The position numbers were made by a program, and so were the translations under genes. Below the pieces are notes generated by a model that did not search any database, was not told where the DNA came from, and saw nothing but the letters and a program-made list of their open reading frames with translations. Below, in pieces: positions 13,263 through 16,001 of a stretch of DNA of 28,114 nt (the stretch's first letter is position 1; each line of letters starts with the position of its first letter). Source of the stretch: a virus; IMG/VR virus record IMGVR_UViG_3300030107_006156, positions 1-28,114 of that record. One strand, given 5' to 3'.

Positions 13263-13277
13263 TGTCGCTAGAAAAGC

Positions 13278-13307
13278 TTGGAGATATTTTCTTTAAGTTT
13301 TTACTAT
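13278..13307 (+). promoter_or_regulatory. Possible promoter for the SSB gene
   Basis: TTGGAG at 13278-13283 (four of six matches to the -35 consensus), an 18-base spacer and TACTAT at 13302-13307 (four of six matches to -10). It lies in the 93-base gap before the SSB gene, the longest intergenic gap in the window. A strong AAGGAG site follows before the ATG at 13343, consistent with high expression of an SSB. The match is imperfect. Confidence 0.35.
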
Positions 13308-13342
13308 AGGGTAATTAACCCAAAAATAAAAAGGAGAAAAAA

Positions 13343-14128
13343 ATGGGTATTGATTTTGATAAACTTAGAAAGACCTACGATAAGGTCATGAACAAAAAGG
13401 GTGATTCTATTTTTTGGAAGCCAAAGGATGGCGAACAGATTATTAGAATTATTCCTACGAAGGATGGAGACCCCTTCAAGCCGTATTGGTTTCATTATGG
13501 CATCACGAGAGGCGGGTTCCTGTCTCCCTACAGAAACTTCGAGGAAAATGATCCTCTGAATGATTTTGTGCGAGGCTTGTTTGACGAGGCCACGGAGGAC
13601 AGTATTAAGATGGCAAAGAAGCTGATGGCTAAGCAACGCTTTTTTACCCCTGTTATTGTTCGAGGTGAAGAAGACAAAGGTGTTCGCTTGTGGGGTTACG
13701 GCAAGAAAGCCTATGAGACACTCGTTAAAATTTGCATGAGCAAGGAATACGGGGATGTCACAGATGTTCACAAGGGTCTTGACCTCAAGATCACTTATGG
13801 CAAACCGCCGGGCGCACAGTTCCCAATGACGGATATTTTGCCTGTCCCATCGTTTTCGCCAAACACGGATGGCCAAATGACCATTGGTTCTCCGGCGTCA
13901 CAAGATCCAGCCCAGATTAATGACTGGATTGAGGGTGTCCCTGACTACGACACCGCCTTTGAGCGAAAGACCCCCGAGGAGGTTGGACAAATTTTGGACA
14001 ACTACCTTAAGGATGAGGGCGAAAAAGAGGAGATGGTGAAGTACGGAGATGACGCTTCCTCCAGTCCTGCTACCAACGCTACCTCTAATGACGTAGAATC
14101 TAAGTTTGCGGAGCTTATGTCTCAGTAA
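13343..14128 (+). CDS. Single-stranded DNA-binding protein, T4 gp32 type
   Basis: A 261-residue protein that coats single-stranded DNA during replication and recombination. Recognised from FWKPKDGEQIIRIIPTKDGD (24-43) followed by a PFKPYWFHYGITRGGFLSP segment, MAKKLMAKQRFFTPVIVRGE, GVRLWGYGKKAYETLV, YGDVTDVHKGLDLKITYGKP, then a disordered, acidic C-terminal tail ending ESKFAELMSQ, the usual protein-protein docking tail. In gp32 and many relatives the region after FHY holds zinc-binding Cys. Here residues 58-75 (GFLSPYRNFEENDPLNDF) have none, so zinc is probably not bound. Strong AAGGAG ribosome site before ATG 13343. Neighbours include the recombinase, exonuclease and helicase with which it would cooperate. 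Confidence 0.85.
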   Translation: MGIDFDKLRKTYDKVMNKKGDSIFWKPKDGEQIIRIIPTKDGDPFKPYWFHYGITRGGFLSPYRNFEENDPLNDFVRGLFDEATEDSIKMAKKLMAKQRFFTPVIVRGEEDKGVRLWGYGKKAYETLVKICMSKEYGDVTDVHKGLDLKITYGKPPGAQFPMTDILPVPSFSPNTDGQMTIGSPASQDPAQINDWIEGVPDYDTAFERKTPEEVGQILDNYLKDEGEKEEMVKYGDDASSSPATNATSNDVESKFAELMSQ

Positions 14129-14142
14129 ATACTAGGACACCA

Positions 14143-14173
14143 CCGCAGGGGGGCACGGGTTTACAGGTGCCCC
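14143..14173 (+). promoter_or_regulatory. Conserved RNA hairpin element, copy 1
   Basis: CCGCAGG leads into a seven-pair stem GGGGCAC (14150-14156) / GTGCCCC (14167-14173) around the loop GGGTTTACAG. The same leader, loop core (GGG then TACAG) and stem geometry recur at 14823-14852 with compensatory base changes. It lies 14 bases after the SSB stop and 30 before the lipoprotein start. It could be a terminator, a processing site or a cis-regulatory element; the conserved loop and leader argue for more than a terminator. Confidence 0.6.
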
Positions 14174-14202
14174 ATCGTTAATTATTATAAAGGAGAAGAA
14201 TA

Positions 14203-14517
14203 ATGTTTGAGTTTATTAATCGTGATCACGTTTTCGGTGCATTGGCCGGGGTTGCTCTTATGAGCGCCACAGTCTTTCTGGTCGGATGTGACGGTGAGGA
14301 AGGTAAGGATACGGGTGATAGCGCTGTGGAAACCAGCACTACGACCAGTACTACTGTAACCGACCCAACCACTACTACGACTGGGACCACTACAACTGGG
14401 ACCACGACTACCGGAACCACTACTGGTACTACTACCGGAACTACCACTGGCACCACCACTGGTACTACCACCGGGACCACTACTGGCACGGGTACGGGCA
14501 CTGGAACAGGAGGATAA
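14203..14517 (+). CDS. Predicted lipoprotein with Thr/Gly repeat tail
   Basis: A 104-residue protein. Residues 1-29 are a lipoprotein signal: a short charged start, a hydrophobic core GALAGVALMSATVFLVGC and a lipobox L-V-G-C at 26-29 with Cys29 as the lipidated residue. Asp30 after the Cys would favour inner-membrane retention under the E. coli +2 rule, although that rule does not hold in all bacteria. After a short acidic segment (DGEEGKDTGDSAVE) the rest is Thr with regular Gly: three five-residue and six four-residue Gly-Thr units, then Gly-Thr pairs. Such a tail is extended and unfolded. It has an AAGGAG ribosome site and its last codons (GGA GGA) form the ribosome site of the next gene. 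Possible roles are superinfection exclusion or a spanin-like envelope function; neither is shown by the sequence. Confidence 0.75.
   Translation: MFEFINRDHVFGALAGVALMSATVFLVGCDGEEGKDTGDSAVETSTTTSTTVTDPTTTTTGTTTTGTTTTGTTTGTTTGTTTGTTTGTTTGTTTGTGTGTGTGG
14413..14484 (+). repeat. Six tandem 12-base units encoding Gly-Thr-Thr-Thr, all different at DNA level
   Basis: Six consecutive units encode the same four residues, yet no two have the same twelve bases: GGAACCACTACT, GGTACTACTACC, GGAACTACCACT, GGCACCACCACT, GGTACTACCACC, GGGACCACTACT. The protein repeat is exact while synonymous third positions are scrambled, which suggests selection on the protein and avoidance of, or age since, DNA-level slippage. 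Confidence 0.85.
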
Positions 14518-14519
14518 TT

Positions 14520-14810
14520 ATGGAATTCATTAAAGAAAACAAGAGTGTGTTTTTCTTGCTCGGAGCAGCCGTTTTGGCTGTGGGCCTTTGGGCCTTTGGA
14601 AGTAATACTTCCTCTGAGAATGCTGACGACGGCGTCACTGAAGCGCTCGCGGAACTCGTTGAAGAGTCTAAGGAGCATACCCCACAAGAGATTGTGGTGG
14701 AAGCTACCAAGGTCGAAAGTCTTGTTGATAAGGCCAACGAAGCAGCGGCAGTGAATCAGGCCAACGAAGCTGTGAAGAATACTATTGATGCCGATCACCC
14801 TCAACGGTGA
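14520..14810 (+). CDS. Small single-pass membrane protein
   Basis: A 96-residue protein that I do not recognise by family. Residues 9-26 (SVFFLLGAAVLAVGLWAF) form one membrane helix after a short charged start, with Lys at the cytoplasmic side, so the remaining 70 residues would face the periplasm. That part is acidic and helical (VTEALAELVEESKEH, VESLVDKANEAAAVNQANEA) and could form a coiled coil. Its ribosome site GGAGGA is the end of the lipoprotein gene, two bases before the ATG are left after that stop, so translation is coupled. A lipoprotein plus a one-pass periplasmic helix recalls two-component spanins, but the order is reversed from the common one and the lipoprotein is Thr-rich, not Pro-rich. 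Function is therefore open. Confidence 0.72.
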   Translation: MEFIKENKSVFFLLGAAVLAVGLWAFGSNTSSENADDGVTEALAELVEESKEHTPQEIVVEATKVESLVDKANEAAAVNQANEAVKNTIDADHPQR

Positions 14811-14822
14811 TTAGGGCGTCAG

Positions 14823-14852
14823 CCGCAGGGAGGCATGGGCTACAGATGTCTC
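14823..14852 (+). promoter_or_regulatory. Conserved RNA hairpin element, copy 2
   Basis: CCGCAGG leads into GAGGCAT (14830-14836) / ATGTCTC (14846-14852) around the loop GGGCTACAG. Compared with copy 1, one stem pair changes G-C to A-U, another C-G to U-A, and one G-C to G-U, so pairing is kept. The T-rich stretch at 14854-14865 could make this copy an intrinsic terminator. It ends 25 bases before the TTG start of the recombinase gene. Confidence 0.6.
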
Positions 14853-14876
14853 AATTTTTATTTTATAGGAGGAACA

Positions 14877-16001
14877 TTGGCTAGACAACAAAAAGTGAGA
14901 GTCGGGGGCCTGTCCAGCGACGATATTAGAAAGATGTTAAACAAAGGGTCTGGCTCTAAGGTAGCCTTCTCTTTAAAAGATGAGAACCCATCAGATGTAA
15001 AAGAGTGGGTTTCAACTGGCTCTAGATGGCTGGATGGGATAATTTGTAAGGGCAAATTGGCCGGTATCCCACTGGGCAAGATTGTTGAGATAGCAGGCCT
15101 TGAATCAACCGGAAAGAGTTATATGGCTGCCCAGATCGCAGCGAATGCACAAAAGAAAGGCCTAAAAGTGGTCTATTTTGATTCTGAAAGTGCGATTGAC
15201 TCAGAGTTCCTGCAAAAAACAGGCGTGTGCTTGGATGACTTGATTTATGTACAGGCGGAGACAGTCGAGTTTGTCCTAGAGGCCGTAGAAAAGATTATTA
15301 GCCAGGAGGAAAAGGTTTTCTTCATCTGGGATAGTGTTGCGAACACCCCTTGTAAGTCCGACGCGGACGGCGACTTCAATCCGCAGTCCTCCATGGCTGT
15401 AAAGGCAAGAGTTTTGTCTAAAGGCATGAAGAAGCTTGTTATACCACTAGCTAACGCAGATAGTACAATTTTGGCATTAAACCAGCTTAAAACAAATATT
15501 TCAAACAACACTGCTGATATACTTCTTAACCCACATGTGACACCTGGCGGTAAGGCATTACCATATGCGTATTCTTTGCGTATCTGGTTATATCCAAGAA
15601 GAGCTAAGAAGTCTTACATTATGGACGAAAAGGGTTATAGAATTGGGTCCGAGGTGAAGGCAAGGATTAAGAAGTCGCGCTTTGGAACTGAGGGCAGAGA
15701 GTGTGCTTTTAAGATCCTATGGGGCACAGAGGACGCGGTTATTCAAGATGAACAAAGTTGGCTAGATGCTGTCAAAAGTTCTGAGCACATTGACCAAAAG
15801 GGTGCGTGGTACATTCTTACACATAAGGATGGAAGCGAGCAGAAATTCCAATCGTCTAAGTGGCTTGAGCTATTAGCAGAGGATAAATTTCGATCCCGCA
15901 TCCTAGAAATTATGGATGAAGAGGTCATACAAAAGTTTTCATCTCGCGAGGGCGATGCTACGGCATTCTATGATGTTAACCAGGGCGCTGAAGATGAATA
16001 A
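14877..16001 (+). CDS. UvsX/RecA-type recombinase
   Basis: A 374-residue strand-exchange ATPase that pairs single-stranded DNA with homologous duplex in phage recombination-dependent replication. The start is TTG 14877, four bases after AGGAGG (14867-14872); an ATG at 14835 in frame lies inside the hairpin and would add 14 unlikely residues. Walker A is GLESTGKS (74-81), preceded by the RecA-like STGSRWLDGIICKGKLAGIP segment. VVYFDSESAID holds the acidic strand after helix 2, and VFFIWDSVA (147-155) is Walker B. A Gln/Asn segment ILALNQLKTNIS with the following disordered loop and TPGGKALPYAYSLRI match the DNA-binding L2 region and the strand after it. T4 UvsX has 391 residues, so this is full length. 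It is followed with no gap (TAA then ATG) by the exonuclease gene. Confidence 0.88.
   Translation: MARQQKVRVGGLSSDDIRKMLNKGSGSKVAFSLKDENPSDVKEWVSTGSRWLDGIICKGKLAGIPLGKIVEIAGLESTGKSYMAAQIAANAQKKGLKVVYFDSESAIDSEFLQKTGVCLDDLIYVQAETVEFVLEAVEKIISQEEKVFFIWDSVANTPCKSDADGDFNPQSSMAVKARVLSKGMKKLVIPLANADSTILALNQLKTNISNNTADILLNPHVTPGGKALPYAYSLRIWLYPRRAKKSYIMDEKGYRIGSEVKARIKKSRFGTEGRECAFKILWGTEDAVIQDEQSWLDAVKSSEHIDQKGAWYILTHKDGSEQKFQSSKWLELLAEDKFRSRILEIMDEEVIQKFSSREGDATAFYDVNQGAEDE

Follow-up and report, generated by a model that had tools for sequence, protein, structure and literature searches.

A predicted compact RNA pseudoknot at gene boundaries of uncultured phages and its possible role as intercistronic punctuation

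The gene 32 mRNA of phages T4, T2 and RB69 carries a pseudoknot that acts as the autogenous operator of gp32 (excerpts of PMC3014915 and PMC535899); according to the excerpts of PMC3014915, T4 gp32 binds this RNA pseudoknot 5' of gene 32, and RNase E cuts the gene 32 message at a conserved site close to the stop codon. Protective intercistronic structures, in which a stable RNA lies between cistrons, have likewise been documented, as for malE-malF (excerpts of PMC5927463).

Here a phage element is described that lies near gp32-type genes, on their other side. It was found within a 28,114-nucleotide stretch of viral DNA (a 28-kb virus record, termed here the window) and was then followed through relatives from IMG/VR phage contigs. 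Structured intercistronic RNA is a known kind of element; the predicted pseudoknot fold of this one and its repeated intergenic use appear to be new as far as the searches reach, and no publication on the element was found in the literature searched.

Two elements within the window and their gene neighborhood

The window encodes a gp32-type single-stranded DNA-binding protein (SSB), a lipoprotein-like protein, a small membrane-type protein and a RecA/UvsX protein, in the following arrangement:

13343-14128, plus strand: gp32-type single-stranded DNA-binding protein gene (Pfam PF08804 gp32, 44.5 bits against a cut-off of 26.8; PHROG 1192)
14142-14173, plus strand: predicted pseudoknot, copy 1, between the gp32-like SSB gene and the lipoprotein gene (from the sequence, a model R2 match at 14143-14173 and pair counts in relatives)
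14203-14517, plus strand: small Thr-rich lipoprotein-like gene (104 aa, by eye from its translation; 12-base repeats)
14520-14810, plus strand: small protein with an N-terminal membrane segment (96 aa, by eye from its translation)
14822-14852, plus strand: predicted pseudoknot, copy 2, between the membrane-protein gene and RecA (from the sequence, a model R2 match at 14823-14852 and pair counts in relatives)
14853-14860, plus strand: G-free tail of copy 2, AATTTTTA, in which the RNase E preference RN|WUU fits directly behind the stem
14877-16001, plus strand: RecA/UvsX-like recombinase gene (Pfam RecA, 131.5 bits; PHROG 97, UvsX-like)

Copy 1 follows the gp32 stop codon by 13 bases and copy 2 the membrane-protein stop codon by 11; a further 24 bases separate copy 2 from the TTG start codon of RecA, which is preceded by AGGAGG at 14867-14872. 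The RecA of this phage group is distant from described phages: its highest identity to a record of the searched named-phage collection is 34%. For the lipoprotein-like product no Pfam or PHROG family was found at E ≤0.1, and for the membrane-segment protein Pfam and PHROG gave weak matches, none above the Pfam cut-off. Much of the lipoprotein gene (14373-14514) consists of 12- to 15-base repeats coding for Thr/Gly-rich sequence.

An earlier note on this DNA had described two hairpins with a shared leader and a seven-pair stem that differ by compensatory changes, and the sequence bears this out. Copy 1 (14143-14173) consists of CCGCAGG, the stem GGGGCAC/GTGCCCC and the loop GGGTTTACAG; copy 2 (14823-14852) consists of CCGCAGG, the stem GAGGCAT/ATGTCTC and the loop GGGCTACAG. 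Two stem pairs are changed on both sides (G-C at 14151:14172 to A-U at 14831:14851, and C-G at 14156:14167 to U-A at 14836:14846), and one has become G-U (14153:14170 versus 14833:14849). The stretch 'TAGG...C...CA', which the same note took as a shared upstream feature, falls outside the conserved element, and the bases upstream differ among relatives. Hairpin energies of the two copies are unremarkable (z -1.54 and -0.04); fold energy being thus uninformative, the evidence for the window elements is covariation. When model R2 was run on the 28-kb record, its 2 matches at E ≤1 were the two copies and nothing else (best 1.2e-10).

Pseudoknot fold and its covariation in relatives

A lack of further copies, which the earlier note had named as grounds for abandoning its proposal, is the opposite of what was found. 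On 80 RecA-bearing loci, some of them without a match, model R1 gave 94 matches at E ≤5, all 94 on the coding strand, and at least 344 distinct copies were eventually obtained from IMG/VR phage contigs. The first search pattern fixed leader and loop (both C1 and the loop GGG) and left the stem free; it returned at least 120 stretches, and among the matches listed for it about half were chance occurrences without pairing. Relatives were additionally gathered by a search for RecA relatives. Clean tests of leader-loop pairing come from the sets obtained with leader G and a free loop, with leader C and a non-G loop base, and with leader-blind scans. The loci are partly overlapping pieces that were dereplicated by flanking sequence alone. 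Identical flanks were collapsed for the counts of tail composition, of -1:18 pairing and of RN|WUU; one chance match, L013, was removed before the tail, -1:18 and within-locus similarity counts; and stems of other than 7 pairs were left out of the RN|WUU tail and within-locus similarity counts.

From these comparisons, each element is predicted to be an H-type RNA pseudoknot on the mRNA strand. Stem S1 comprises three Watson-Crick pairs (-1:18, 1:17 and 2:16) and a purine-purine step, 3.15 (G.G or A.A); stem S2 comprises seven pairs; and loops L1 (CAGG) and L3 (nnACAG, ending ACAG) are nearly invariant. The window copies are laid out as follows:

Copy 1, S1: A14142-U14160, C14143-G14159 and C14144-G14158, with the purine step G14145.G14157
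Copy 1, loops and S2: L1 CAGG, 14146-14149; S2, 14150-14156 with 14167-14173; L3, 14161-14166 (UUACAG)
Copy 2, S1: G14822-C14840, C14823-G14839 and C14824-G14838, with the purine step G14825.G14837
Copy 2, loops and S2: L1 CAGG, 14826-14829; S2, 14830-14836 with 14846-14852; L3, 14841-14845 (UACAG)

Relative to the earlier note, the positions stand, except that each element starts one base earlier (at 14142 and 14822), that base pairing with a loop base; similarly, its 7-bp stem stands, as part of a predicted pseudoknot instead of the plain hairpin described there. Its central claim--that compensatory change has kept an RNA structure--is strongly supported by the additional copies and by covariation in relatives.

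Because base -1 belongs to none of the search patterns, it provides the strongest test of pairing. It pairs with loop base 18 in 326 of the 344 distinct copies, against a mean of 155 and a maximum of 183 after shuffling, as A-U in 142, C-G in 128, G-C in 26, U-G in 14, U-A in 12 and G-U in 4, with 18 mismatches; control pairings, by comparison, occur at chance (-2:19 in 175, shuffled 180; -1:19 in 159, shuffled 161). Within loci reached solely by leader-blind scans, the -1:18 pair is formed in 160 of 169 copies. Its wobbles comprise 18 G.U-type and no A.C-type cells; likewise, among 54 stem-blind copies that have five or more Watson-Crick pairs, the 18 non-Watson-Crick cells consist of 16 G.U and 2 U.U, with no A.C. 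Since wobbles are G.U and never A.C, selection acts on the coding-strand RNA.

The 1:17 pair behaves in the same way. At leader-blind loci, each of the 135 copies that read CGCAGG at positions 2-7 has C1 together with loop G; when the pattern specified leader G but not the loop base, every one of the 49 fully paired matches (not dereplicated) had the loop GGC; and the pattern that combined leader C with any loop base other than G returned 2 matches, neither of them paired. Pooled leader/loop counts are C/G 216 and G/C 27, with no other combination, in a set that takes in many loci fetched with leader-containing patterns. The purine step between position 3 and loop base 15 is G.G in 293 copies, A.A in 46, A.G in 5 and G.A in none; a third class has the leader CCACAGG or CCACGGG and the loop AGGG. 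In a set of 43 distinct cores, pairing is kept in 99% of cells, and 4 of the 7 pairs show double changes; for 54 sequences drawn from all classes, the nine-pair pseudoknot has a standard pair in each of its 486 cells, the informative part being the S1 pairs inasmuch as these sequences were picked for intact 7-bp stems.

Raw counts of this kind are inflated by shared descent. Switches of pair type among copies of one locus, however, support pairing independently of them: among 77 multi-copy loci, 59 differ at -1:18 between copies, every copy still pairs in 47 of these 59, and 42 loci hold two copies that differ on both sides of -1:18 and are both paired. The window is itself such a case, with A-U at -1:18 in copy 1 and G-C in copy 2.

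One copy (in L600, minus strand, near 1501-1562) has a 41-nt loop, in which an additional stem (TTAAAAC..GTTTTTAA) may form between GGG and ACAG; this copy indicates that the third loop tolerates insertions.

Database searches returned no described counterpart. Against Rfam 15, the window gave no match at the gathering threshold and none at the elements up to E 5; in five other records, matches at E ≤3 were tRNA genes, their antisense or weak hits elsewhere, with none at an element. Blastn of four element forms against named phages (50,697 records) yielded no convincing match: in one of these searches fifteen records matched over 80% of the query at E 0.6-8, the annotated ones lying in RNA or DNA polymerase genes. 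Model R2 had 0 matches on 4 named phages, a set without a positive control. Apparent copies in cellular genomes were rejected as chance: a pattern scan gave at least 119 stretches, and among those listed none had all 7 pairs and 10 had 6. Some weak model matches in two large contigs (G026 and G045) were, on inspection, likewise judged to be chance.

Genomic position of the copies

The element typically begins shortly behind a gene. Its start lies 3-20 nt after a stop codon in 311 of 356 candidates (mode 7-10), a set that includes the chance match L013 and in which 347 have an upstream ORF stop in the searched span. On the downstream side, a next start codon was called for 106 of 114 first-set copies; it lies 15-43 nt past the element in 85 and 60-97 nt past it in 5, the remaining 16 calls being artefacts inside or right at the element. 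Of 347 copies, 51 have an in-frame extension of just 0-3 codons past the upstream stop codon, its length varying widely in the others, and stop-codon readthrough was rejected as a general role.

Main-class copies lie mostly between a gp32-type ssDNA-binding gene and RecA. Among the first 88 contigs, gp32 and RecA were both near the element in 78, RecA only in 4, gp32 only in 3 and neither in 3; at gene-independent loci, 163 of 175 copies were flanked as expected by gp32, by RecA or by both no more than 4 kb away, 11 were near a contig end and 1 was elsewhere. The 39 copies of the G-leader class are distributed differently: 16 are elsewhere, 17 lie close to the end of a contig and 6 are next to gp32 or to both genes. 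Large contigs having the element carry 1-4 matches each, and sampled large contigs had none in 7 of 18, 5 of 20 and 11 of 40 cases.

Within 121 mapped gp32-RecA loci (109 distinct intervals), 93 contain at least one element, 20 contain neither an element nor a called ORF, and 8 contain an ORF with no element found, where L168 was counted as lacking an element yet carries one with an inserted base. An element without any called ORF occurs at 18 loci, of which 7 have room for a missed gene, ORF calls in this interval being heuristic. The earlier note had also suggested that the elements might be the duplicated ends of an inserted two-gene cassette. As a general rule this fails: at 11 of the 121 loci the element sits in a gap of ≤130 bases with no room for a gene, and copies beside tRNA genes, as well as a divergent form before a phoH-like gene, likewise speak against it.

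The gp32-RecA interval (14129-14876 in the window) is, over the 121 mapped loci, a hotspot for many unrelated small cargo genes, with none to five called; these include lipoproteins, membrane proteins and FKBP-like, ClpP-like and ParB-like proteins (the last three named by eye).

Further contexts are varied. Copies occur after an AAA ATPase gene and after a Cas4-like exonuclease gene; the 41-nt-loop copy lies between a nucleotidyltransferase-like gene (by eye) and a tRNA-Thr gene, and another lies between tRNA-Met and tRNA-Leu genes. Among the copies next to tRNA genes, one begins 11 nt past a stop codon and ends 5 nt short of the tRNA gene, a placement in keeping with the punctuation role proposed below. 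The 183-kb closest relative holds a divergent match, scored at 30.4 bits by R1 and 29.4 by R2 and with a 17-base loop starting AAGG, in an apparently monocistronic 5' leader, where promoter-like sequence is followed by the element and then by a phoH-like gene (by eye).

Separately, two adjacent small proteins (~139 and ~101 aa) are common to three class-G contigs (L649:10402-11116, L654:5166-5931 and L657:9617-10337) and to the closest relative, G001 (E 9e-30 to 7e-42), which hints at a common host.

Possible roles and comparison with known systems

The role tentatively favored here, and put at somewhat short of an even chance, is that of an intercistronic element protecting mRNA 3' ends after RNase E-type cleavage. 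The pseudoknot would punctuate the polycistronic phage transcript: the G-poor tail directly behind the knot would be cut by RNase E of the host, or by an equivalent enzyme; the knot, with its 7-bp stem toward the 3' side, would block 3'-to-5' exonucleases; and the upstream message, above all that of gp32, would be stabilized and separated from the downstream genes, making the knot a pseudoknot counterpart of the malE-malF protective structure. This role is favored because of selection on the RNA strand, the post-stop position (as for a malE-type structure, near the upstream stop), replacement by plain hairpins, a tail resembling a cut site and the RNase E precedent in T4. Among the roles offered by the earlier note, processing site is the best fit, a partial terminator or attenuator being possible.

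The tails have a distinctive composition. The first base behind the stem is A in 78-98% of copies and is followed by about six or seven bases with little G, the tail being T-rich in classes A and B and C-rich in class G. The sequence RN|WUU, an enteric RNase E preference (in the excerpts of PMC5222698), fits 109 of 239 class-A tails directly behind the stem, where shuffled tails give a mean of 17 and a maximum of 30, and 23 of 50 class-B tails (shuffled mean 2.6). Class-G tails have RN|C in 22 of 37 (shuffled mean 5.6), which resembles the mycobacterial preference (in the excerpts of PMC10641625), and 4 of 37 match the fuller mycobacterial RRCNU; these consensuses are enteric and mycobacterial, and the phage host and its RNases may differ. 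Against protection, 130 of 239 class-A tails lack RN|WUU at that offset, as does window copy 1 (tail ATCGTTAA), and the tail signal could have other compositional causes. Moreover, the phoH-leader match and the inter-tRNA copy have no message directly upstream and therefore fit poorly with protection of an upstream message pure and simple. Because a plain hairpin would suffice for end protection, the fixed loops suggest a specific partner or fold--that is, an exonuclease-resisting tight fold, a bound protein or catalysis may be involved.

Where the element is missing, something else usually stands in its place. Of 22 distinct gp32-side gaps scored as lacking it, 20 hold a GC-rich stem of at least 6 pairs, which lies 3-25 nt after the gp32 stop in 19 and at 80 nt in one, with TTTT behind the stem in 11; one of the two stemless gaps is that of L168, which really has the element with an inserted base. 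The gap after gp32 thus usually holds a stable structure, terminator-like in half of the cases. In two of the loci without the element (L139 and L153), a terminator-like stem is followed, by eye, by promoter-like TTGACA/TATAAT between gp32 and RecA, and RecA may there have its own promoter.

Since half of the replacement stems (11 of the 22 gaps) are terminator-like, they suit an alternative in which the element is a partial transcription terminator (attenuator), knot and pyrimidine tract sometimes stopping RNA polymerase to give much gp32 and fewer downstream products. Of the class-A tails, 131 of 244 have TTTT within 10 nt, as do 15 of 46 class-B tails but just 2 of 37 class-G tails; and a T run directly behind the stem, as in an intrinsic terminator, is approximated by about half of class A and not by class G, the run being offset by the A that comes first. 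Terminators, moreover, need no invariant leader, S1 or loop sequence, a tRNA gene follows closely behind two of the copies, and element-bearing large contigs carry 1-4 matches rather than one per operon end. An attenuator is, on balance, unlikely. A genome-wide terminator was rejected as a general role, given 0-4 matches per large contig and class-G tails without T runs.

A second conserved hairpin is seen in the gp32 5' leader. It has a variable stem of ~8 bp and an 8-nt loop near GARATTWG, usually followed by ACTNTA, and lies 20-44 nt before the start codon in 25 listed cases. A search favoring ATT-containing loops found it in 141 of 203 distinct leaders, and in the window a variant is seen by eye at

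13272-13308: gp32-leader hairpin variant, AAAAGCTT/AAGTTTTT, then ACTATA

This hairpin may be the gp32 autogenous operator. In a further alternative, the pseudoknot is an operator: a protein of the host or of the phage would bind it and so control translation downstream, in the manner of gp32 at T4 gene 32. The near invariance of L1 and L3, the proximity of most main-class copies to gp32 (78 of 88 contigs with gp32 and RecA) and the T4 precedent would suit an operator; the knot, however, lies downstream of gp32 while those 141 leaders carry the different hairpin, and class-G copies mostly follow genes without gp32 similarity. Nor did any phage protein family track the element: when ORFs of 60 aa or longer from a small set of partial contigs were compared by blastp, no family was present in all element contigs yet absent from two without it, which hints that the element works with host machinery. 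An operator of this kind must be considered doubtful.

That the knot is itself cut, as a self-cleaving ribozyme or an endonuclease substrate that separates transcript units, is improbable. A compact pseudoknot with several fixed unpaired bases, one loop that tolerates insertion, and copies placed between mRNA units and beside tRNA genes would be in keeping with it; on the other side, known self-cleaving RNAs are larger than this knot, and Rfam yielded no match at the elements (E 5 for the window, E 3 for the five other records). Least probable of all is a DNA-level recombination element, in which copies provide homology or a site for shuffling gp32-RecA gene cassettes: the interval is highly variable, many loci having about one element in each gap, and same-locus copies are somewhat more alike (mean 2.85 versus 3.40 differences, the lowest of 500 permutations being 2.85; identical pairs 21 of 106 within loci versus 5.4%), but selection tracks the RNA strand (G.U, no A.C), same-locus copies often differ at -1:18 (59 of 77 loci, with all pairing in 47 of the 59), 11 loci have an element in a gap without room for a gene, and copies occur elsewhere without an array.

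Returning to protective punctuation, a broader proposal is put forward with greater reserve: the elements could represent a new class of compact ~32-nt phage pseudoknot that punctuates polycistronic RNA, either by stopping bacterial exonucleases or by being itself cut, that is present in different uncultured phage groups, probably using host machinery, and that marks gene boundaries in a fast-changing hotspot. As a sharply defined fold with fixed loop bases that occurs in hundreds of uncultured phage sequences and in no Rfam family, it points to a shared mechanism by which phages may set replication-protein ratios. The knot is small enough for direct structural work and reporter tests, could become a portable part for setting operon expression ratios, and marks a large phage group whose RecA is distant from that of named phages.

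Among comparable systems, the terminators and plain hairpins of relatives lacking the element share its position past the gp32 stop, but are plain GC-rich stems that lack a fixed leader or loop and, in 11 of 22 gaps, are followed by a T run. PeSLs, attributed to Arbiol (2010), are reportedly mobile promoter/stem-loop cassettes, that is, repeated intergenic stem-loops in variable regions of T4-type phages; unlike these, the present element leaves little room for a promoter in its ~25-nt gap to the next start, and it is a predicted pseudoknot with nearly invariant loops. An integron attC element travels with its gene through a site-specific recombinase; here, elements occupy most gaps of a variable interval and show weak within-locus similarity. 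STAXI (RF01728; excerpts of PMC2864571) is likewise a pseudoknot near single-stranded DNA-binding protein genes, but consists of tandem repeats with frequent UUCG loops, and its model matches 0 of 10 element records at E ≤1.

The T4 gene 32 operator resembles the element in being a small pseudoknot tied to a gp32 gene, with unstructured A+U-rich RNA behind it. An RNA pseudoknot is indicated here too, by S1 and S2 covariation, though not in the gene 32 5' leader: the T4 pseudoknot lies ~67 nt upstream of gene 32 (excerpts of PMC3014915 and PMC535899), whereas the phage element lies downstream, often in multiple copies, and has different stems and fixed loops (R2 gave no T4 match, in the set without a positive control). 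The malE-malF structure, with its differential operon decay (excerpts of PMC5927463), is similar to the arrangement proposed here, in which a stable RNA after the upstream gene would separate differently needed genes; the phage element differs in being a sequence-specific predicted pseudoknot conserved across phages. Finally, xrRNA/coremin (excerpts of PMC10520033) are also short folded RNAs, some of them intergenic, that block an exonuclease, although these belong to RNA viruses and Xrn1 and have a different sequence; if the phage knot does stop exonucleases, it would be a bacterial counterpart of such viral exonuclease-resistant RNAs.
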